From: Patellaria atrata CBS 101060
Lineage: Eukaryota > Ascomycota > Dothideomycetes > Patellariales > Patellariaceae
Direction of reading: 5' to 3'
NCBI GenBank assembly: GCA_010093705.1
Contig: MU006095.1
Span: 686,315-750,314 of the forward strand
Length of the DNA: 64,000 nucleotides
The first letter of the stretch is position 1. Each line of letters opens with the position of its first letter. The position numbers and the translations under genes are program-made. Of the stretch, positions 25,141-49,728 are shown piece by piece. The notes below the pieces were generated by a model that made no database searches, was not told where the DNA came from, and saw only the letters and a list, made by a program, of their open reading frames with translations.

Positions 25141-27751
25141 TCAATGATACTGCGTCGGACCTTCCACCTTCCCAACCTTCTTTCCCAGCATCTCTGCCTG
25201 CCTTCCCAGCCGTTCCCAGTGTGTCCCCCAAATTTCCTCCCTCGTAAAATCGAGCCTATGTCCGCAACGTCTCCAGAGCACGTCCTCTCTCTTCACACCG
25301 TCCGCACAACAATGACCCCAGCAATCACCGAGGCGCGTGATGATCGACTCGGTGGGATTAGATCGCCGCGTATCGTCGATAATGCGCAGCATACTGGGGA
25401 TAGCCACTTCGTGGAAGAGACGCAGTTGCCCGAAGAAGATGCTGTTGAGGAAGATGTAGTCGGGGAAGAGGCGTCGGGGGAGGTAGTAGATGTCTGACCA
25501 GCTACGCGGAGTTAGCACGTCGGACTAAATTACAAGAGTTCTCGGAAACACTCTTAGTTCGCGAAAGAAGAGTTTGGTATACTAACCCCACACACCACTC
25601 AGTGGTGTTGATAACGTATCCCACGTTTAGATCTTCGAGGATTCGCTCACCGTGCATCGTTATCTCGTGCATACCCCACCAACCATGCCACTCTGGATAC
25701 TGCTTCGGTGTGTTCATGCAGAGATACCTCGGGTTCGGACTATCGGGAAACCATATGCCGTCAAAATCCATGTTCTGGAACCCGAACGGGTCGATCCACG
25801 CGTCAAAGTGGAAATACAGCATCCCTTCGATTCCGTTATCTGGATCATCAAGAATCAGCTGCATAGTATCAGCCACTGCCTTGGTCGGCAGGTCCCCGAT
25901 ATTCCACCCGTCATGAGTCATGTTAAGGAAGTAAGCGTCTTCTTCTTCTCCGTTGTTGGGGAGGGTATGTTCATAAAGATGTGGGATGCTATAGTGCAGA
26001 GAATGGAAGAACGGTTGGTAAGCTTCCATCAGCGGCATCCGCTCTTCGTGGGGGCTATTCCAACGGATGAAGGCGAATGTGTTCTTAAAGGGCGATTCCT
26101 GGTATTTAGGCGTTTTTGGGGTGGAACTGGCGCCGAGAGCCTCGACCTGCTTGAACTTGTTGTCTGGGGATTTACTGCCCCAGAGCGTCAAGTGGGATAT
26201 TATCACAAGAGACACTAGGAGATTGGTGAGGAGTCCGATACCGCGAAGACGTCCCTGAAGCTATTAAAATCATTCTGTTCACAGATGTTAGGGAGCACCT
26301 ACCCCAGGAGCGAAAGAAGAGATTGTTCGCATGACTTTCGAAGAACCACCAAGCAAAGTTGAAGTTGCTTGAATTGAGTTCAAACCTCCCTTTGGAGTCG
26401 CTTCCATATACAACCACGTAGCTAAGAATACGACCATGGATCCAGGAATAACGAGGGGGTTGAACCAAACGTGGAAGAGAATAGGCGACACATAAAGTAA
26501 GATGGACGTCGCAATTGCAGTCGCAAGACATTTAACCAGAGCATCAGCGTCTACGTTGAATGGGTTAGTTGGGCTCATTGACATATATTTTCAATCCCGC
26601 ATGTAGTCACTTACATTTGTATACAGCCGTAATAGCAAGACCAAAGAAGACATTACTGATGATTACAATGATTGCTCCCCAGTTATGGTATCCTACGAAA
26701 AATCCAGGCTCTTCTGGGTTGACTATCCGAAGCGTGAAATGGATTACACTATTAATAGTAACACCGCACGCATACAAAACCATGTTATCGGAATGTAAAG
26801 AAGCATCTTGACTCTTGATCAGACTCTGATTATACACGCTAGAAGTCGCGCTCAGAAAAGTCTTGAAAATAAGAATTAGGTATGTAGACGCAGCATATGG
26901 AGCGCCAACACCAGGACGGTATTGGGTCACGACCACACCGGCGATCTTATTGACGTCCATTTCAGTATATGGACTCGGAAAAGGAAGGGTGGAATAACGT
27001 ACCTGTAAGAAAATAGCTACCCACTGAGTCTTTACTATTCGGGTTCCTACACCGTAATACAATACTAGAGCGGTGATCAAGGTGATTCCAGACTTAATCA
27101 ACTGTATCGTTCCTGGGTCCGCCAGTCGATACAAGACGAATACCTATGGCTTGTTAAAATATCATCGGAAGTGGGAGGAATTCTGCCATACGCAATTGTT
27201 GATCAGCGCATAAAGCAAAGCAAGCTGTGCAAAGCCGTACTTGGTCTTTATCGGAACTTCATGTATGCAATAGCCGAGAAAATCTCGGATCGTGAAGTCG
27301 GATTTTGAATCCCCGGCTAGTACATATGCCGCAGGTCGCTCATCGGTTACTTCGCTTGTGAAACTCGACGATTCGCTCAACTCCGCTGGAGGGTCGATTA
27401 ACACTTGCTTCTCATCAAGGGAGTCTCGCTCTGGCTGAGGTATTGAGCGATACTCGGTAACTGGCAGCGGATTCCTCCTTTTACATTCGCCGTAAAAGAA
27501 ACAAGTCGAGAGAACAAGCTTGAAGAACTCAGATATTGCTACTGATGCGGAAACTGAAAAGCTATATCTGCAATGTTGTGAGATACTATTAGAAAAAATA
27601 ATTAGGCTGTTACTTACTGCCCCTGGTGCTGAGCCGCTTTATAACAGATCCCGATGCCGACTTGAATAGCGATTAAGGCTATTGCTGCAACATAGGCTGG
27701 GTTTAGTTTCCCTCGAATTGATGTTAGAGTATAAGAAAGGGAAACCGACAT
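25141..27751 (-). CDS. Nucleotide-sugar transporter fused to a glycosyltransferase-like domain
   Basis: The ATG at 27751 begins MSVSLSYTLTSIRGKLNPAY. Six introns with canonical ends leave one frame of about 750 residues. Residues 1 to about 415 are a multi-TM nucleotide-sugar transporter of the SLC35A/PF04142 type: KTKYGFAQLALLYALINNC, VLYRLADPGTIQLIKSGIT, YLILIFKTFLSATSSVYNQ, NVFFGLAITAVYK, DALVKCLATAIATS. After SSFAPG a 42-nt intron (GTAGGT ... CCTAAC ... AATAG) joins in phase 0 to LQGRLRGIGLLTNLLVSL. That is a TM helix followed by a lumenal domain with AFIRWNSPHEERMPLMEAYQ, MTHDGWNIGD, GMLYFHFDAWIDPF, EWHGWWGMHE, EWCVGWSDIYYLPRR, FHEVAIPSMLRII, GDCWGHCC and RCGHRLDF. I recall this as a fungal putative glycosyltransferase-type family. 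The lumenal part has no in-frame ATG near its start, which supports a single fused gene. An alternative is two overlapping transcripts, the second starting at MRTISSFAPG. Confidence 0.72.
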
Positions 27752-27997
27752 TGTGTAGTATCTGCGCCTCCACTCTCGCTAGCAAGTACGTGACTAGGTG
27801 TTCATATGTTTCGAAAAGATCTAAGAAATCTCAAATCAACACCCTTGCTTTTGTCCGCAGGTGAGGAATGCTCAATATCGCGTTGCGGTTCGCGTCTAAT
27901 GTCTAGTGAAATGATGTCAGGGAGCTTATCGGATCGCATTCTTCATCGCGTTACACGAAAGGTACAGAATTCTAGAACTACAAAGCATGAACTACGA

Positions 27998-30414
27998 TTA
28001 AGAATGATCACCATAATTGTAAGCAGCTTTCCAAGCCGCTATAGATCCCCAATCCTTATACTGGGAAACTCTAACCCCAAAGAAGGGGTGGGATTCGCAA
28101 GTGAGTTCCCAAAGGATATCAACGACTCGAAGCTCGTTGTTGCGAGGTCTGCTATCCTTGCGTTCACAAGAGAAATCTCTAGAGCGTAATAAACGACGGA
28201 GTTTCGAAGCAGCAGAACTAAAATCTGACGCTTCGAGAAAACTCCAACCGCCACAACAGAAGTCCGATGATAAAAAAGACCCATAGGCGATATTTGAGAC
28301 CAAATTATCGTAGCTAAATGACACGTAGCTTTTCCTCATTGCGTCTACTAGGTCTGGCCGTAAAGCACTTTTAGATAGTTCGTTCGAAGTATCGTCCTTG
28401 ACGATTCGGGATACAGTAATATAGTTACCACCGGAGACTACATGGGCAAAGTCATTATCCGCATCCTTGATAAAGATAGGACCTTGAATATCTTTGGTTG
28501 TGATAGCATCAGTGATAGTCTCAACAACATCAACCGTTTGTTCTTCAGCGTAATAGAACTCGAGAAGACCGCATTTTCGAGGGCCAAGTAGATCAAAGAG
28601 CGATTCGAAACTCCCATCATCCACACAATGCTCTTCAATCGTCGATCGTAATACTATAACCACTATGCGGGAGACGTTTCTGACATCAAGATTACTGATA
28701 CAGTCGACAATCAGGGGTCGCCCATTAGACTAAAAGGATTGGTCAACTTGAGGAGCAATTAAGTCGGATAAGTGAACTTACATTGGTGGTTAAGAGCTTC
28801 ACTGCTCCATCAGGATACACCTCATCCATGTCTGGTCCTAGGGCAGGCAAAATGACCGTAATTCCTGACCCTGTCTCATGATAAGGTCTATCCAGATCTA
28901 CCGGTGACTCTAAAATGGTCGGAGCAGTCTGGAATCTCATAGGCCACATACTTTTGACAACCCTTTGAAGACCGGCCATGAGACATCTCTTTTCTTCTAT
29001 CGTAGTCATATACGGCAAAATTCGTGCAACGCAAAAGAATTCAAAAAGAGGAAGGACATCCCAGAATGAATATTTTTGGTAGGCAATGATAATCTTCTCA
29101 TGAAAGAGAGCGAGAAAGGTGACACCTCTAGCAAGCTGATCGGGGGAAATCTGCGCGACAGTGAAGAACCAGTGATGACGAACATCTTGCAACAATTTTG
29201 CGATGTCTTGCAACGGTGATTCCTAATAATCATCGTTAGCCTCGTGAGCTTGCATTGTGATATGTGCTCATGTCTTACGACGAAGCAATCAAGGAAATCT
29301 AGTACACAAAATTCTCGATTATCCGTATCTGCAAGGATATTCAGCAAGGTTAGGTCGCCGTGACAAGTACCCAGTGGTACCTCTGCATCCGACAAACAGT
29401 TCGTGTAATAACCTAGGACGAATTCAAATTGAAGGTCAATGATCTCAATGTCAAAATCAGTGAGCAGTTCGGATGAATGAAGAGCCATTCGGATATTCCG
29501 GGCCTTTGCGTTGAACTGCGGCATGATTGTGTGTAGAGGAACGTTTTTAGTCTTGGTGAGCATGTTATCAACAAGTCCAATGGCGGTGTCAATGAACCAA
29601 TCCCATGTTGACTTATCCTTCTCTAGAAGAACGGTTGTCGTATCGTGGAATGGAATATACTCCATATCAACGACTAATGTATCTTGTTCCTCAGGGATGT
29701 GTGGGGACCGAATCCCATATATTTCAGGCGTGCTAATAACAGACTGAAGGTGATCAGTACGACACCAAGCAGAAAACTCGATTTGCTTCACAATCTGCTT
29801 TAGCAGTCTGTTACCATCTTGTTTTGCGCCGCTGAATGCTTGTTTTCTTACTGCCCACATGCTCGAGGTTAGCCGTCGAATAGTGGCTTTGTTGACGTAT
29901 GATTCAGCTGATTCTAGTAGAGAAAAGTACGATGGTCTGCGTTGCGGCCATCCTTCGCGTGTCGGCAACATAGGCCTGCGTAATGCTTTTTGAGCTTGAG
30001 ATGCTCTTGAGCCGATTATGCCGAGGGAGATTTCAGACGGGTTCGGGGACGGTGAGCGCGCATGTGCTAAGACGGTCTGCATATTCTCAGACCCCCATAC
30101 TGTAGCCAAATCGATCAGTAGAAGAAATGAGATATGTGCTAGAGCTTACGTTTATCCTTTGCGGAAAGATATACAAGATCTAGATCCGTCTCACATTCGG
30201 CAATGCTAATGATCTTGACTTCACAATCAGACCTACTCACCCCCTTTAAGGTAGGGACGTGCGATTCTGCTTCCTTCTGTCCAATGCTACCATTTCGAAA
30301 ATGGGCGGGTTTGGATATTTTTGTAGCCCCATTTGCGTTGAATGACTGAGTATCCAAGTGTTGAGAAAATGAATCAGAGATTGTAACACTAGGATGTATT
30401 TCGTGTCCAGGCAT
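27998..30414 (-). CDS. APH-like kinase fused to a nucleotidyltransferase-like domain
   Basis: Exons 30414-30150, 30099-29279, 29222-28782 and 28729-27998 sum to 753 codons in one frame, with three introns of 50-56 nt. Residues 1 to about 130 are Ser-rich and unassigned. The middle is an aminoglycoside-phosphotransferase/choline-kinase-like fold: TLVVDMEYIPFHDT, then CHGDLTLLNIL at about residue 335 (catalytic HGD-x4-N) and CVLDFLDCFV (the metal-binding DFG equivalent). The C-terminal part from about residue 480 resembles sugar-1-phosphate nucleotidyltransferases: ITVILPALG, GRPLIVDCISNL and IFIKDADNDF (metal-binding DxD, about residue 595), FCCGGWSF and YKDWGSIAAW. The usual G-x-x-x-R-F loop is replaced by ALGPDMDEVYPDGAVK, so the Arg is missing though the Lys remains. 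An in-frame ATG 72 nt further upstream (30486) is possible. The substrate is unknown; small sugars, polyols or choline are candidates. Confidence 0.78.
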
Positions 30415-30667
30415 TATGACTGAACAACAACAGATTGAAAAACATATGATGAGTGTTGACTGATAAAGTGTATACTCATTTATCATTCCCCCAAATAGTC
30501 GCGAGGTTGGTACGCTGCGCGTCTAAGGTATGTAAATACCTGTTGTGTAACATCCTTCCTACATGTAGTACCTGCGCGTGGAGTTCTCAAAATTTTTAAA
30601 AAGGGATAAAAGGAAATTTTGGAGAAGGCCAAACTCCGCTAATCATTCTACCTCTTTCTCAGACATC
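30415..30667. promoter_or_regulatory. Shared divergent promoter of the two nucleotidyltransferase genes
   Basis: The head-to-head genes start at 30414 (minus) and 30668 (plus), leaving 253 nt. Such spacing favours co-regulation. The spacer has TATA-poor AT-rich DNA and no operator I can name. Confidence 0.45.
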
Positions 30668-32509
30668 ATGGGAGGAATCACTCAACACGCAACCGAAGGT
30701 ATCCACCATGCCCATTTCCAGACCAGTGGAGGGAAAGGCATCATTGACTTCCTCCGTACCTGTTCAAAGTTCGAGCTCAGTTGGTTCATAGAGCAGACAC
30801 TTGCGCATTTCCCTCGTGGTCGCGTTCTGAAGTACCCAGATTTGAAGGTTGACCTTGACAAGATCCGTATCGATGTGGACCAAAGGATCTTACACTGGGA
30901 GCCAGAATCAGAGGATGAGATTTCGAACAATATCATTGAAAATTTCATTTCATCTCTCTTCAAAGCTCTCGTGAATGGGCAGGTTACGGCTGAGAGACCC
31001 CGACGCGTACGTGAGAGTATCGCGGCAATAGTGGTGTTACAGAAGATTATCTGGAAGTTTGATGGTCTTGTCGCAAAGTGCGACGAAGAAGTGTTTTGGA
31101 ATGATACAGTTTCTCGAGAAGATAGATCTAATGGTCATTACCGATATCGGGTAGAAAAGTTACTTAGGCCTACTATTTCAAAGGAAGCAACTAGCACGCT
31201 CGGATATCTCCTCAAATCTATGAATGAAAAGATTGATGGAAAGGCGCTGGAGGATGTTCCTCGAGGTCCCGTCCCAGATAGCACGGCACCTGTACCGGCC
31301 CCTACGAGGGATGCTGATGGTTCGTTCTCACATTCTCCCAACGCTCAGGTCGTGACACGGCCACCGTTGGTCGAAGGCACTCCTAGAGATGGAACATCAA
31401 CGTTGATTCTACCGTGCGCTGGCCGTAGCTCTCGTTTTCCGGGAACCAGACCGAAATGGATTCTAACTCAGCCCAACGGCCGGCTCATGGTGGTTGACTC
31501 TATAGCCGCCTTAGAACTGCAAAAGGTTCACCGAGTTGTTTTGGGAGTCCTCAAAGAACACGTTGATAAGCATTGCGGGTCGGATGTTGATGCCATAATT
31601 CGAGGTTTTGACGACGGTCCTCCTCGACTTCGAGAAATCGAAATATCTGTTGTTATTTTAGATTTTGAAACCCGCGATCATGTGCAGACGGTCGAATGCA
31701 TCGTCCGAGCGGCTAATGTGCAAGGGCCTATCTTCATGAAAGATTGCGATAATAGCTTTCGATGTGATATTCCCGGTCGGGATGGTGTTGCTTTGTTTGA
31801 GGTGAGAAAAGACCTTGAATCTGTTTCCAATCCTGCTGCCAAGAGCTACGCTACGTTCGACAATGCAGGCATCATCACCAACATCGTCGAGAAGGTGATG
31901 CTTGGCTCGCACTTCTGTTGTGGCGGCTACTCATTCGGCGATGCTATCGATTTTCTATCCTACACTGAACTTGCGCGGAAATACCAAAAGAGCACTCGCA
32001 CCGATGACCTCGATCTTTCCGTTTCCGATGTTATCTGGCTGAAAATGGTCTCTCCTTTCTCGCCCAGGACCCCTTCCAAAGGGTTTATGGCCATTCCCGT
32101 CTTTGACTACGAGGACTGGGGCACACTGGTGGCCTGGCAAGCCTACACAAGGACTTTCAGCACCCTCTTCGTCGATATTGATGGTACTCTCGTCAAGAAC
32201 AGTGGGAAGAACTTCAAACCTTCCTACGGTGACATGCCGGCGCTTGAAAAGAATGTTATGGCTCTTCAGAAGCTGTATGCTAAAGGCCGTACGCATATCA
32301 TTCTTACGACAACACGGCCTGAGGAATACCGCGACGTTACTATCAAACAGATGAAAGATTGCGGCGTCCCGTATCATGGTATCGTATTTAGTCTTCTCCA
32401 TGCAAGGAGGGTTGTCATCAATGATTATGCAGTCACTAATCCTTACCCGTGTGCCGTAGCTATAAATCTCCAGAGAAATGGGGAGGAACTAGCGCAACTC
32501 CTAGTATGA
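30668..32509 (+). CDS. Nucleotidyltransferase-HAD phosphatase fusion protein
   Basis: This is an intronless frame of 613 residues from the ATG at 30668; the open frame extends upstream to a GTG at 30578, but MGGITQHATEG is the first Met. Residues 1 to about 235 are an unassigned domain (GKGIIDFLRTCSKFELSWF, ESIAAIVVLQKIIWKFDGL). From about residue 240 comes a nucleotidyltransferase with an intact signature (LILPCAGRSSRFPGTRPKW, the G-x-x-x-R-F-x4-PK loop), metal-binding IFMKDCDNSF (about residue 357), FCCGGYSFGDAIDF and VFDYEDWGTLVAWQAY. From about residue 498 there is a HAD phosphatase: LFVDIDGTLVKN (motif I DxDGT), HIILTTTRPEEY (motif II) and VVINDYAV (acidic motif). NTase plus HAD is a pairing found in bacterial capsule and heptose-nucleotide pathways. 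The likely role is dephosphorylation and activation of a sugar phosphate. The exact product is unknown. Confidence 0.8.
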   Translation: MGGITQHATEGIHHAHFQTSGGKGIIDFLRTCSKFELSWFIEQTLAHFPRGRVLKYPDLKVDLDKIRIDVDQRILHWEPESEDEISNNIIENFISSLFKALVNGQVTAERPRRVRESIAAIVVLQKIIWKFDGLVAKCDEEVFWNDTVSREDRSNGHYRYRVEKLLRPTISKEATSTLGYLLKSMNEKIDGKALEDVPRGPVPDSTAPVPAPTRDADGSFSHSPNAQVVTRPPLVEGTPRDGTSTLILPCAGRSSRFPGTRPKWILTQPNGRLMVVDSIAALELQKVHRVVLGVLKEHVDKHCGSDVDAIIRGFDDGPPRLREIEISVVILDFETRDHVQTVECIVRAANVQGPIFMKDCDNSFRCDIPGRDGVALFEVRKDLESVSNPAAKSYATFDNAGIITNIVEKVMLGSHFCCGGYSFGDAIDFLSYTELARKYQKSTRTDDLDLSVSDVIWLKMVSPFSPRTPSKGFMAIPVFDYEDWGTLVAWQAYTRTFSTLFVDIDGTLVKNSGKNFKPSYGDMPALEKNVMALQKLYAKGRTHIILTTTRPEEYRDVTIKQMKDCGVPYHGIVFSLLHARRVVINDYAVTNPYPCAVAINLQRNGEELAQLLV

Positions 32510-34677: not shown

Positions 34678-37107
34678 CTATGACTTCACGTCGACCTTCT
34701 CCGTTGGTGTGGCAGAGCCGCTTCCCTCTACTTCCCTCACTTCTCCATGTGTAACACGACCAGGCTTCCTTTTCCCAGTTATATCTAAAAAGATTGCCTT
34801 GAACGTCCTGGCACTTGTTGCGCGTCCCTCCCACAATGGATAGATCCCGACACAGAAGCTCGAGAAGAAGAGCCACATAATACCGACGACAACCCAGCCG
34901 GTGAAGAACTTCTTGCTGAAAATGTAGCCAGATCCATACATGGGCATAGGCCAGAGTACGAGGAGACATAATGTCATGACGACAGTAAGGATGCGCGCAA
35001 ACCTTGAGGCTTTCTTGAGTTTGGCTTGCTCTTCAGCCTCGTCTGATTCCGAATGTACACCGCCAGGTACCAGCTCAAGATCAACGTGAGCGGCAGCGGC
35101 AAGATCATGATCATCACCGCGGCGAATCGCCTTCATGCTCACCCAATCGTACGTTGGGGTTTTAAGTGTGAAGCTAAGAAGAGGAACGAAGATCAGGGGT
35201 GAGAGCAGAGCAACAACGTTACCTGCCAACATGGGGTTGCTAGATCAAAAGTCAGCGCTGATAATTATGGAACGCATTGGAATTGCTTACTTGGCACCAG
35301 TGGTTGCAACAGAGAGTTCACCGCCTTCCTTTTGGGCTGTTACCAACCATGCGATGAGAGAGCAGGCAAGACCTAGAGGAGGTGTGAAAGTAGCTGCAGC
35401 CCAGCTCTGCTTGCTCCAGAGAAGCGTTAAACTGGCTGGGAGCACAGCAGAGGATATGATTACACCCATGAGTAAGTAGAGATAACCCATGGAGATCCCA
35501 ATATAGTACAGAGCAGTACTGAAGCCGGCCATTGCTAAAGCGAAGCCAACGACACAAGCATGGGCCATGTTGATCAGACGTCTACCGCTAGCTTCAGGGT
35601 TGAAGTAAGTCTGATAGATATCATAGGTGAAGATAGAGGATACAGCAATAAGTTCGGCAGACATAGCTGATGTTACAGCCATGAAGATCAACAAAAGGGT
35701 CGCTGCAGCGCCGCCACTGCCAAGCATAGCGACAGCAGCGGAAGGAAGAGTTAAACCAGCCGAAACATCCGCAGCTGGCAGGCGGTTGGGGTAGGTTGGG
35801 AATACCGGATTATCCTCAAGAGCAAGACAAGCGAGGCCCATGGTGGTAGCAGCAAGCCAGGGAATGGCAAACCAACTGAGACCACCAATGACATATCCGG
35901 GAAGAGCATGGACCGGGTGAGCAGCAATGGCTTTGTTGTAATAACCTACAGGGGTTAACAGAGAAACTCGAAAATTGGAATCAAAATACTATACCATTGT
36001 CGCAGAAAACTGTTCCGAAGTTTCCTACAATGTTGATGACAAAGAAGATGGCACCCTCTTTTGATCTCATAGTAAGATAGCTGCCACCGGCATTGCCCTC
36101 GACTGGGTGACGGATCGCAGCTTCTTGCAACTTCTCCCAAACTGCACTAGGGCTACCAAGGATGTCGTTGGTCGCATATGTAGTGAACGCGAAGGTGAGG
36201 ATAATGATGAGGATGACGACGGTGTGGGCATAGTCCGTAAGGAATGTAGCTTTGATACCACCAAACATGGTATAGATAACGACACCGACTGGGAGCAGGA
36301 AACAAGCTGCAGCGGTGGGAACGCCTGTGAGGGAGGTGACCACAGCGGAACCACCAGTCAACAACATAGAAGTGACCAAGATGTTTGTCATCAGGCCGAA
36401 AACAATGAAAACACCGTGGGTCACTGTGCCATAACGAGCCCGGATAACCTCCAGGAACGTGTGAGCGTTTGGAGCTCTGCGTTTCAATTCGATGGCAAGC
36501 GTCGCGAACAGAATAACCTGTACGGTAGCCCCTGAAGCATACCAGAATGGGCCGGAGACACCACTATAGGAATGATTAATTGGGGTTTCAGGCTATGAGG
36601 CTAATTGCTGTACTCACTAGTTGTACGCGACGGACGAGGATTGAAGAAGCGTAGCAGCCCAGGTCCAGGACGAGACGACCGCAGATGCAACAAGACCAGT
36701 CTTGACAGTTCTACCAGCGGTACTGAACATCTCAGACGTCTGAACTTCATAGTTGTATCTGTACCATGTCAGTCTTGACTAATCCCTGCTTATGTCATTG
36801 GACGAATGTAGGTCTCCGCCCTCCGGGATCGCTATAGATTTCCGGGTGGGATATTGGGGACTTAAAAAGCAAGATGTCGTCTCCAGAGCGATAGTTTGCA
36901 GAGAAATATCTTTCAAGTACAAAGGAGAGAGCTCTGTGTAGCACGTACCGTTTGAGGATGAAGGTGGTCAAAATCATACCAAAGCTATACCATCTGTTAA
37001 CTGAAATTCTGATCATATAATATCCTAGGAACTTACGCAAAGAGAAATCCTAGGCCGATGATAACGCCATAGCCAACGGCCTGACTGAGGGGCGGGTTTG
37101 TAGCCAT
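34678..37107 (-). CDS. DUR3: Urea active transporter, SSS family
   Basis: The ATG at 37107 starts [20 protein letters not shown]. Several introns of about 50-65 nt separate the exons; those I checked at YN(Y)[16 protein letters not shown] and [20 protein letters not shown] rejoin conserved blocks exactly. The protein is about 680 residues with roughly 15 TM helices, the usual Dur3 size. Diagnostic segments include [69 protein letters not shown] and [20 protein letters not shown]. The C-terminal cytoplasmic tail ends [17 protein letters not shown]. Dur3 is a plasma-membrane proton (or sodium)-coupled urea, and in yeast polyamine, importer induced under nitrogen limitation. Two GATA motifs lie upstream, consistent with AreA/NIT2 control. 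Intact as far as I can see. Confidence 0.93.
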
Positions 37108-40268: not shown

Positions 40269-42389
40269 CTAACTCGCCGTCCCGTTCGTCGGCGGCGTGA
40301 AGAAAGTCTGCTGATCCACGACCAACAATCCTGCAATACTCGCACTGGTGAGCGTCGAAATAGCGCCCGTGATAAGCGCCGAAACGGCGAGTCTGCTGAC
40401 GTCGCCACTGCGGCCGGGGGAGATCTGGGAGAGCACACCGATCTGGGTGCCAAGGGAGCCGAGATTGGCAAACCCGCAAAGGGCATATGTCGCGATGAGG
40501 CGAGAGCGCGGGGAGAGGTCGGCGTAGGCGGGGTCCTGTTGGAGGGCGAGGTAGGCGACGAATTCGTTCTGTTGTGAATGATCAGTATTTCATCTTGGAG
40601 TCACTGCGTTTTATGAGAGTTGGGGAAGGACTTACGATGATGAGCTTGATTCCGATTAGGCGGCCAACGGGGAGCAGGTCTGGACGTGGGACGCCGAGTA
40701 AGAAGGCGATGGGGTAGCAGACGTAGCCGATGATGAGCTCGAGGGTGAGGTCGTAGTCGCCGTCGAGGTTGATGTAGCGGCCCCACCATGTTAATAGGCC
40801 GTCGACGAGTCCGAGAAGCGCGATAATACAGAGGAGCGTCGCGACGATCATACCGGCTATCTTGAGACCGAGCCACGCGCCATTAGCGAAGGCATGCAGG
40901 GAGTTAGCGGCACGGTGCTCGTCGTCATCTGGAATAACGACACGACCAGCGGTTAGAGTCTCTTCTTCCTCCGGGTAGCGGAGCTTGCTGATAGCGAGGG
41001 AAGCTGGGATACTCATAACACAAGAGGAGATCAGAGCTTGGGGGTTGATGCCGAGACCGATATAAGCGACGAGGACGGAGCCTGCAATAGTGGCGAAACC
41101 GGAGCACATGACTTGATGAAGTTCGGCCATGGTAAGATGGGCAACGAACGGCTTGATCAACATAGCAGATTCACCTTGTCCGATGAAGGGGGATGCGGCA
41201 GCAACGACAGCCTCGGCACCGGACACGCGCATGCTCCAGAAGAAGAAGACGGCGAACTTGCCAATGAACCATTGGAGGAGACCCCAGTAGTACAGCAGCT
41301 GGACAAACGCGACGAAGAATATGATTGGGGGTACCACACCCGTGAAGAACCAGGGGAGCTGGGGTACGGTTGCATCAGTGAGGAAAGTGACACCATCGTT
41401 AGCGAAGTGCAGGAGTTCACGAGCAAGCTCGGAGATGAAATTGAAGATGTCGTAACCGGCCTGGGTACGGAGGACGAAAAGAGCGACAATGAACTGAATG
41501 AACATGCCAACGATGACGGTATGCCAATTGATCTTCGACCTGTTCCTGGAGGTGAGCCAGAGGACAAAGATAAACACGATGAGACCGAATAAGCTGACCG
41601 CACGGTTTGCACGCGTGTTGTCGAGACTCTCCTCGCTGGCAAAGGCACCAATGACGATAACGCCGACAACTAGAGCCGCTGCAAGCGGAATACGAAGCTT
41701 TGGTGGAGTCAATTCTGCGACTCTTACACCGGTGTGACGCCATACAAGCTTCACGGGCTGCATAACGAGGCTGACGGGAACGTAGAGGGTGATCAGACGG
41801 ATGGTGATGCACAGGTACAACAGGAATGGGATAACCCAGTTCTTGTCACTACGGTGCTCAACCAAGCTAGCAATCCACCAGCTTCAAAATAGACATATTA
41901 GTATATGATCATTAAAAATCGACAGATCAACTTCTTGGGTCAAACCTACCCAGTGAAGAACAACCAGATGAACAAATGGAAAAAGATGCGCCATTTCCTG
42001 TAGAAGTTGGAGACGGTGTGGGTTTTTGGGTCTTCTTCTGGCTCCATGTTGTTCCTTGTCGGACTGATGCTACCCTTTTCCGCATCATATGCGTCTCCCA
42101 TCATCTCTTTCTCCTGAGCTGCACCATCCTTTTTGTCGGAATGAAGTCGTCGGTGAAGTGCATGATCATTCGGATCCTGATCAGGGATTATGCTCTTTTC
42201 TGCGGTCGTGCCCGTTGTATACGCAGGTTCGTCTGTCCTGCCCCTCGGAGCACTTGAATCGTGGTGAAGATGTGTATGTTGATGCTCATGGCTGATGTCG
42301 AGAGCGGGATCGCTATTTCTAAAGACGTCACGCTGCGGGGAGGCATTATGGCTCCGCTTCGGCTCCACTGGGGTGAAGCTTTCAGCCAT
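40269..42389 (-). CDS. Concentrative nucleoside transporter (CNT family)
   Basis: Three exons give about 665 residues. Exon 1 from the ATG at 42389 encodes a long hydrophilic N-terminus rich in His/Asp (SHEHQHTHLHHDSSAPRGRT). An intron at FFTG/WWIASL and another at IKLII/NEFVAYLAL rejoin the membrane domain. CNT signatures are clear: SPFIGQGESAMLIKPF, ELHQVMCSGFATIAGSVLVA, NPQALISSCVMSIPASLA, NEFVAYLAL and LCGFANLGSLGTQIGVLSQI. CNTs import nucleosides by proton or sodium symport at the plasma membrane. The stop TAG is at 40269-40271, after PPTNGTAS. Strong complementary frames on the plus strand reflect the biased composition of the gene and are not genes. Intact. Confidence 0.93.
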
Positions 42390-47099: not shown

Positions 47100-49728
47100 A
47101 ACAGCGAAGAGATCGCGGACGTAGTCCAACGGAAGGCTCAAGACCTCCTTCATGTGCTCAAGACCGGGACCCCGTTTGAGACGTCCAAATGGCCCTCAAA
47201 TCTTCTTGAGACCTGCAAAGAGATTGGCACGATTAGTGCTCTGAAAAATCTTCTACCAGCACCATCTGCGACTAACGATAGCCTGCAAACATTCAAGAAT
47301 TTTGCGAGAAGCGATGGTCAATGTCGCGACTGTCTTCGATATCTCATACTTGGTTCGATAGGCAAAAGCTCCTGTGAAATCAATGATTATTACGGTTTTA
47401 GTAAAATAACGAACCAAGTAAAGCGATTGTCTATCGCGAGTCCTGAATACATGCTAACATCATCTAGAATACTGTCGATATGGTCAGAATGGCGCTGCTT
47501 GATCTCTTACTTCGGATAATTGAAGTTCATATTGACAGGTTAGTTTACCAAATCAGACATTCCGAAAACGCCTCAGTCTTATTATTAACTATAGCACAAT
47601 TGCCTTGCAAAATGCAGAGAACGCTAAGAAGAGGTCAATACCCACGGAACGCGATGCCAACGATGAGCCGGTGATGAATCTGGAACCTTCAAAGGTACTA
47701 GGACAGGGTCGTAATTTCGTGGAGAACTTTGAAATGGAGCTTATCTCCGATCGTAAGCTTAGCCCTACAACTACTGAAGTCCTCAATTGACACGTTAGGT
47801 TTCAAACGAGCACTCAAAGATGTGGAAGACTTAAATATTTACAATTCCAATGCGCAAAGGAACTTTCGCATCAACGTCTTTTTTGTCCACAACTACTTCT
47901 AAGTAGGGGGAACACCTTCAATCATAGACAAGCTTCCATCCATCGATTCTGGGAGGATTCTATCCATCTTGCAGTCATGGCTGGAGCATACAGTTGCAAA
48001 AGCTGAAGGCACGACTTACGCGAATGTTCTCCAACAGATGTTGGAAGCTAAATAACGTGGCCAGGGTCCAGAGACCGCAGTTAAAGATCATAAGAAATTT
48101 TGCCAAGGTCTTGCACGACTCTTAGCACCTATCAACGGGCTCTATTTGCCAGATCTCAAATTAGATCCCTCCCTATCTGTCACCGTTAAGTATACACTCG
48201 AGTCACTCTATCCACAGGTTGATCATGTGTTCAGGAATGAGCCCGCGTTCCTGGGTAACTTACCGGATGAAACCATTCAGATAAGTCTTGGACTCAATCA
48301 AGATTGGGGTTATCAAAACAAAAACTTCAAGCATGCGGTTGGAGCCTCTCTTGGTACTGCTGATATTACAAAGGATCGGTGGTACTATGATGGCGCGCAA
48401 TTCCCTGACGTCTACGATGACCGTGAGTATGGCCGAGCGGTTGCGACCGAACTGGAAAACCTATCCTATCTTCAGGCAAGACCTCAGGCATTTGGAATGC
48501 TCAAAAAAAGACATCGAATAGTACATCACTTCATCGATCCTCAACCCTTCAAAGTTCCAAACTTACATGTCAAAGATGGCTATCGCAAAGACCAACTTCC
48601 CAATCTCAGTGATTATGACCGAATAATCTACCCAAATGGCCCGAAGAAACCTGTGCCGTGGGAACAGATCCTTCCCGCCAATTTAGACAAAAAGATTCAG
48701 ACCATAATCGAGTCCGGCAATGGGTGTTTTGCCCCCGGGACTATGGTATGGACAGACACAGGAGAAATACCAATCGAAACACTTAGAGAGCATGATAGGA
48801 TCTTGACTAGAGCAATTTCAGGCAAATACGGACTAAAATCTGACGAGGTTGTTGCGTTACCTGTCGAAGGTGGGAAGGTAGTTCTTTACGGCTTTAATGG
48901 CCAGCGCCCATTTTTCACCAGAAATCATGTTTTCCACACCACCACTGGACTAAGAGCAGTGGATCTGATCGCTGTAAAGATGGAGAACCTGTGGCTTGAG
49001 GTTGGTAAATTACGCTGTGGTAATACGTTGCTATATACTAGCGACGGACGGTTCTGCGAGCATTTCACCATCTGGAGTCTTTTGAATATTGTTGAAGAGT
49101 GTGATCATGTCTAGGGTATACACTTAAGAGAAAGCTTTCGAAGCTACCACGCTAACGGTTACCTCGTTCATCCAGACTATCCCGAGATTACAATCAAGTC
49201 TATTGCTGACTCCATAAAACAACTCCCTATTGATCAAGGAGTTAGGATCCTAGGCTCTCTCAAAGAGCTAAAGCCAATCTTCCAGAGATTTGGGGGTGTC
49301 ACAGTCGAACAGATTCTTTTGAGAGAAATTTCTAACGATGAGGTGCTTCGCAAGATGAAGCACAAGCCTACAGAGGATTTTGCCCCCCACCCTTGTACTT
49401 CCAAACGAGAAGCTACCAAGTCATCAGCATAAACGAGAATCATTCATGAGCATTATACCTTACCTATCCTTGATTGTCCTGACGGCGTCCTCTATATTGA
49501 TGGCGAACCATGCACTAGGTCACGGATTCTTCGGCGCGGGTTCGCTTGGTCTCGCAAAATACGAGAGGCTCTATGGGAGCATGGAATGTGCACATTTGGA
49601 GATGATCACTATCTCTTAAACGGCGATGGCTTTATATGGCTGTTCAAGGAGGAAAATCCAAAAGAATCTGACATCAAACCTATTCAGTTCTAAGTACGTT
49701 CTATATCTCTTTGGACACGATACACAAC

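Follow-up and report, generated by a model that had tools for sequence, protein, structure and literature searches.

Introduction

In Pseudomonas peptidoglycan recycling, the phosphatase MupP, the kinase AmgK and the nucleotidyltransferase (NTase) MurU lead from a sugar phosphate to a nucleoside diphosphate (NDP)-sugar, as set out in the account consulted (PMC5371407). The GmhA-HddA-GmhB-HddC pathway for guanosine diphosphate (GDP)-heptose is likewise described as placing a kinase, a HAD phosphatase and an NTase between sugar phosphate and NDP-sugar (PMC10680097), and Wangiella dermatitidis is reported to carry a nucleotide-sugar gene pair, UNGD-CHSL, that is common to this fungus and algal viruses (PMC4059230). 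Here we analyse a window of Patellaria atrata CBS 101060, by which we mean the whole stretch of 64,000 nucleotides studied (contig MU006095.1, positions 686,315 to 750,314), and in it three adjacent genes that we call A, B and C. An earlier note on this DNA had found in them kinase, NTase, HAD phosphatase, transporter and glycosyltransferase-like domains; the three genes are real and this parts list holds, while the host, which the note had taken for a Leotiomycete, belongs to the Patellariales, an order of Dothideomycetes. We consider it reasonably probable, at roughly 60%, that A, B and C form a small nucleotide-sugar pathway that covers activation of a sugar, import into the Golgi and transfer by A.

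The locus shares with the MupP-AmgK-MurU system, as far as that system is presented in PMC5371407, a HAD phosphatase, an anomeric sugar kinase and an NTase as well as the adjoining of kinase and NTase genes; it differs in that the bacterial HAD protein is separate and the substrate is N-acetylmuramic acid, whereas fungi have no peptidoglycan, the fungal NTase and HAD domains are fused, and a transporter-glycosyltransferase follows. Like UNGD-CHSL as portrayed in PMC4059230, it is a small nucleotide-sugar cluster that some of the fungi possess and that has viral relatives, but the partners in that pair are a dehydrogenase and a chitin-synthase-like protein, and here the fungal sequences are not nested among viral ones. 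As regards GDP-heptose synthesis, the fungal kinase B belongs to the APH family and no SIS_2 isomerase domain was found in the P. atrata genome. HddA, for comparison, is a GHMP kinase. A literature search, partly blurred because 'WavE' also matches 'wave', returned no description of the A/B/C set as a fungal pathway. The chemistry is thus known; the combination is new and the host group unexpected.

Results and discussion

Genes B and C divide the kinase and NTase motifs between them

The public P. atrata protein P0121 is 98% identical to gene B, and PF01636 (APH) matches the gene at 3.3e-8, with 34 bits against a curated cut-off of 23.2, while no match to a GHMP-family kinase was obtained at E <= 1. 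The kinase motif HGD[LFY]TxxN is present in 22 of 22 B-type proteins. Downstream of the kinase lies a second domain that aligns with the NTase of gene C with an hhalign probability of 100 and 35% identity, and such an NTase part was found in all 11 of the B-type proteins tested for it. The earlier note had counted two NTases, and the homology of the two bears this out; however, the nucleoside triphosphate (NTP)-binding signature is absent from all 22 B-type proteins (several of which end too early to include an NTase part), and P. atrata gene B reads PALGPDMDEVYPDG at the corresponding site. Judged by its sequence, the copy in gene B is therefore probably not a working enzyme. The DxDG motif was likewise found in none of the 22 B-type proteins.

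Relatives of gene C at E <= 0.001 comprise 401 proteins, and our statements on the C type rest on the 120 of these 401 that are among the matches listed. In this set the NTP-binding signature GxS[ST]RF..[KR]PKW is retained by 113 of 120 proteins and DxDG by 119 of 120; at least three of the seven without the signature are short (P0021, P0036 and P0082, 337-343 amino acids (aa)). By structure and by its GxxSRF...KPK signature, the NTase domain of gene C has the sugar-1-phosphate nucleotidyltransferase fold. The C-terminal part of gene C is a HAD domain by its DxDG motif and a match to the Pnkp1 profile (6.6e-6), with Pfam HAD matches below the cut-off, and PHROGs offered for the NTase just a family without an assigned function and for the HAD domain weak labels. 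The N-terminal region of C occurs in fungal C-type proteins and is missing from relatives of about 350 aa. At the level of motifs, labour is divided between the two genes, the kinase motif going with the B type and the NTP-binding signature with the C type. Searches of the P. atrata genome at E <= 0.01 revealed no further match to gene B except the NTase part of C, and none to gene C except the NTase part of B.

One B-type protein, Sphaceloma murrayae P0134, is recorded as 'DNA polymerase epsilon subunit B', which is probably a merged gene model or a misnaming.

Gene A joins a nucleotide-sugar transporter to a GT-A-like domain

The transporter part of gene A passes the Pfam cut-off for SLC35-type nucleotide-sugar transporters, with PF04142 matching aa 161-375 at 1.5e-21 (77.3 bits against a curated cut-off of 27). 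What sets it apart from other members of this group is that an additional membrane segment and a GT-A-like domain are fused to it. The public P. atrata protein P0143 is 100% identical to gene A over the C-terminal part, which was the region searched, and in P0143 numbering hydropathy places the extra segment at aa 416-434. Beyond it, alignments reveal an invariant HFDxW and cysteines of the CCxxxx/RCGH type in a domain that otherwise carries no annotation. The predicted structure of the homologue P0147 (mean predicted local distance difference test score, pLDDT, 81.6) gave fold matches of the GT-A type, and on this model the C-terminus of A is GT-A-like and a putative glycosyltransferase domain. 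Structure predictions took in 56 of 120 and 49 of 75 sequences. No further match to gene A was detected in the P. atrata genome at E <= 0.01.

Table 1. Coordinates of genes A, B and C and of their parts within the window.
Feature	Position	Strand	Basis
Gene A: transporter fused to GT-A-like domain	25141..27751	-	7 exons, 754 aa; splice model (open frames and GT-AG introns)
Gene A, exons 1-5: SLC35-type transporter part, PF04142	26303..27751	-	Pfam and hydrophobic segments
Gene A, exons 6-7: extra membrane segment and GT-A-like domain	25141..26260	-	Hydropathy, alignments, model, fold matches
Gene B: APH-family kinase and degenerate NTase	27998..30414	-	4 exons, 752 aa; splice model
Gene B, kinase domain, about aa 140-455	28944..29947	-	Intron 29278..29223 inside; HGDLT and DFLD retained
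Gene B, degenerate NTase, about aa 482-750	28007..28865	-	Intron 28781..28730 inside; without NTP-binding signature
Interval between start codons of divergent genes B and C, 253 bp	30415..30667	.	Measured
Gene C: N-terminal region, NTase and HAD phosphatase	30668..32509	+	Single exon, 613 aa
Gene C, N-terminal region, aa 1-240	30668..31387	+	Alignments
Gene C, NTase domain, aa 243-496	31394..32155	+	Intact GRSSRFPGTRPKW signature; KDCDN and DWGT conserved
Gene C, HAD phosphatase domain, aa 497-613 and stop	32156..32509	+	Intact DxDGT motif

The kinase and NTase-HAD genes form an operon in prokaryotes and viruses

The earlier note had likened the domain pairs to bacterial precursor systems, and this likeness is borne out: the kinase of B and the NTase-HAD of C have counterparts that form an operon in bacteria and viruses. 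A genome scan supplied 67 bacterial or archaeal loci, and a viral scan the best 80 of 162 relatives. Neighbourhoods were counted at the 66 bacterial or archaeal and 80 viral loci with a recognisable NTase-HAD frame (L001 and L066, with no NTase-HAD open reading frame (ORF), were left out), skipping ORFs of fewer than 110 aa and those overlapped by longer ones. At 61 of the 66 bacterial or archaeal loci an APH kinase precedes the NTase-HAD frame in the same orientation, and at 49 it is directly adjacent; such an upstream kinase is present at all 80 viral loci, many of them near-copies, and is directly adjacent at 78. Combined, this amounts to an upstream kinase at 141 of 146 loci and an adjacent one at 127, or 140 and 126 under a slightly different rule. 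The kinase and NTase-HAD usually overlap as stop-to-stop frames, and the loci span 15 named phyla. The kinase lies downstream at L049; none is seen at L013 and L057, the sequence of L008 begins where its contig does, and at L018 the ORF filter dropped a kinase that the profile search had detected.

Compared with this operon, the fungal genes have homologous parts, with 39-60% identity within the NTase-HAD (loci L002-L148), but the fungal kinase bears the degenerate NTase, fungal C bears the extra N-terminal region, and the B and C genes are divergent and in part spliced. All three activities also occur in a single 828-aa chain, the metagenomic protein P0086, in which HGDLT, GRSSRFPGTRPKW and DxDG are present and the kinase reads DFLS where most others read DFLD. 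A search of a plasmid collection with P0092 found no match, and the same query recovered six records from a phage collection, in one case with a query coverage of 80% or more. The literature search found no characterised member of the operon.

Part of the loci sit within surface-polysaccharide genes. Bacterial neighbours include glycosyltransferases, WavE, SDR epimerase/dehydratases, methyltransferases, NeuB, a hexapeptide transferase and O-antigen ligase; a WavE-family gene lies within 7 kb at 39 loci (one representative was scanned and scored above the cut-off), and an SDR gene stands between kinase and NTase-HAD at nine. At all three loci of the Helicobacter bilis group the SDR inside the operon is split over two overlapping frames (L005 839-1881, L006 8956-9998, L007 5352-6393).

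A proposed route from sugar activation to glycan

We regard the operon of kinase and NTase-HAD, together with their fusion in P0086, as the best evidence that the three activities share one substrate. According to our model, B would act as a sugar kinase whose target is probably the anomeric carbon. The HAD domain of C would take off a different phosphate, and its neighbouring NTase domain would couple the sugar-1-phosphate so formed to an NTP, so that the NDP-sugar would arise in the cytosol; docking or regulation is the probable role of the degenerate NTase in B. Import of this NDP-sugar into the Golgi would fall to A, whose GT-A domain, kept on the lumenal side by the extra membrane segment, would pass the sugar to a glycan. 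Nucleotide-sugar transporters usually have both ends in the cytosol. Given this topology, a working fused pair in A would require that the extra membrane segment bring the GT-A domain to the lumenal side. The step order, the sugar and nucleotide involved, the Golgi location and the reliance of A on this very NDP-sugar are inferred.

A different order, in which the HAD phosphatase would first free the sugar from its phosphate and the kinase would then turn the free sugar into sugar-1-phosphate, would make the pathway one of salvage that recycles wall sugar. The same enzyme classes fill the same roles in MupP-AmgK-MurU, and amgK and murU adjoin in Pseudomonas putida according to the account in PMC5371407. 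Nothing that we found fixes the step order, however, and the bacterial copies, standing among polysaccharide-building genes, are also compatible with synthesis. We regard salvage as rather unlikely.

Fungal distribution and the tie of gene A to B and C

Among the matches listed, C relatives were found in Dothideomycetes, Leotiomycetes, lichen fungi and the chytrid Irineochytrium annulatum, besides 350-aa metagenomic forms. The question raised by the earlier note, whether the genes stay adjacent in other fungi, can be answered in the affirmative for Dothideomycetidae sp. 11243, in which the consecutive locus tags ANO11243_056460, ANO11243_056470 and ANO11243_056480 belong to C, B and A, respectively. 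In Trichodelitschia bisporula (Phaeotrichales) all three are recorded on contigs of equal size, and the contigs of B and C are equal in size for 9 of 18 fungal-type B proteins, P. atrata included and Microthyrium, Stipitochalara and Sphaceloma among them; equal size is an indirect sign of linkage and not a map. Five of the remaining nine lie on contigs of less than 11 kb, and Irineochytrium has its B and C genes on separate contigs. The C protein of this chytrid, P0072 (its B proteins are P0126 and P0128), groups with lichen C sequences with support of 97 in the Shimodaira-Hasegawa-like approximate likelihood-ratio test (SH-aLRT), which may reflect transfer between fungi or contamination.

Several observations weigh against including A in the pathway, and would fit an arrangement in which B and C are a unit and A is an unrelated neighbour drawing on a common NDP-sugar. 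A-type proteins occur in many Sordariomycetes, genera whose names do not appear among the B and C matches listed, although most of the B and C entries there are nameless and 281 C matches lie beyond those listed; this suggests, but does not prove, that A exists without B and C in Sordariomycetes. The A protein listed for Sphaceloma comes from a different contig than B and C, and three Ophiocordyceps proteins combine A with an SDR, through fusion or through a merging of neighbouring genes. The Sordariomycete distribution makes the tie of A to C less firm than that of B. On the other hand, both the consecutive tags in Dothideomycetidae sp. 11243 and the equal contig sizes in Trichodelitschia come from fungi distant from Patellaria, and we rate an unrelated A as somewhat less likely again than salvage. 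The three Ophiocordyceps proteins (P0199, P0206 and P0210) are annotated with a C-terminal SDR epimerase/dehydratase domain, and either a true fusion or adjoining genes run together would produce such a record.

Taking the three-gene pathway across its hosts, we tentatively suggest, at somewhat less than even odds, that several Dothideomycete orders, Leotiomycetes, lichens and perhaps a chytrid use a pathway of bacterial or viral kin to make an NDP-sugar hitherto unreported in fungi, which a single importer-transferase would place on Golgi glycans, the donor being passed within one chain. If true, this would add a nucleotide-sugar route in fungi, point to a surface glycan, not described so far, of saprobes, lichens and fungi associated with plants, and supply a candidate function for the uncharacterised kinase/NTase-HAD operon, which occurs on many viral contigs and in no fewer than 15 named phyla of prokaryotes. 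The fusion in A would, moreover, allow a direct test of the coupling of donor import with sugar transfer in one protein.

Other possible products

If B and C instead made a cytidine diphosphate (CDP)-choline- or CDP-polyol-like donor, as LicA-LicC or CDP-ribitol systems do, no HAD phosphatase would be needed; A bears a GT-A-like domain and no LicD-like or phosphotransferase domain, and the fold list for the NTase of C consists mostly of sugar-1-phosphate NTases, all of which makes this product improbable. Least likely of all is NDP-heptose made from sedoheptulose 7-phosphate, with B as C1 kinase, the HAD domain as 7-phosphatase and the NTase as nucleotidyltransferase: the step sequence GmhA, HddA, GmhB, HddC is outlined for Campylobacter in PMC10680097, gmhA-family genes occur at 9 of 146 loci, and three Helicobacter bilis-group loci read kinase, SDR, NTase-HAD and then, 82 bp on, a gmhA-family gene that at L005 passes the gmhA cut-off (228 against 209), but gmhA was not found within 7 kb at the other 137 loci, and the reading is weakened by the lack of any SIS_2 (PF13580, GmhA-type) match in the P. 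atrata genome in an exon-by-exon search that was positive in 9 of 14 control genomes and did not include TIGR00441. The gmhA of Ferrimonas (L019) tells little, since it adjoins HldE, as expected of ordinary lipopolysaccharide heptose genes.

Descent of the kinase and NTase domains

A quick, midpoint-rooted NTase tree was computed from 101 sequences (from 54 of the 147 loci, together with 36 of the 120 C-type proteins and 11 of the 22 B-type proteins). One side, of 33 sequences (SH-aLRT 97), holds the fungal B and C domains, P0086-P0088 and other metagenomic sequences, and the B domains form a long branch; the other side holds 68 prokaryotic, viral and metagenomic sequences, including all 40 bacterial and all 14 viral ones. 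The earlier note had asked whether the NTases would fall among bacterial sequences; the fungal ones are instead set apart from the bacterial sequences, and in this quick, midpoint-rooted tree they are not nested among the 14 viral ones either, which lends no support to a virus-derived cluster. In a kinase tree of 63 sequences the 13 fungal B kinases group together (support 100), with P0086 next to them (96).

A fusion of kinase and degenerate NTase as in gene B is also seen in the metagenomic proteins P0139-P0142 (526-538 aa), which do not look fungal. The tree separates them from fungal B, and an approximately unbiased (AU) test does not reject a single clade of the two (p 0.473). A scan of viral contigs found no relative of the P0139-type fusion, and an earlier scan that used just the NTase part of B as query was likewise empty.

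Given the homology of the B and C NTases, we also considered a duplicated kinase-NTase-HAD gene with reciprocal decay, B keeping the kinase and C the rest. This scenario found no support: the N-terminal region of C matched the kinase with an hhalign probability of 3%, revealing no kinase remnant, and the tail of chytrid and lichen B proteins matched the HAD domain with 2%. A single metagenomic record, P0088, joins a pseudokinase-like part to an intact NTase-HAD.

Other features of the window

Beside the cluster, on the minus strand, lie a piece of a sodium:solute symporter (PF00474) at 35981-36592 and a Na+-dependent nucleoside transporter (PF07662/PF01773/PF07670) at 40582-41883. Farther on, at 48056-49114 on the plus strand, a 352-aa ORF has a weak match to Hint_2 (PF13403), with 26.2 bits against a cut-off of 28.4, a domain that would be unusual in a fungal gene.

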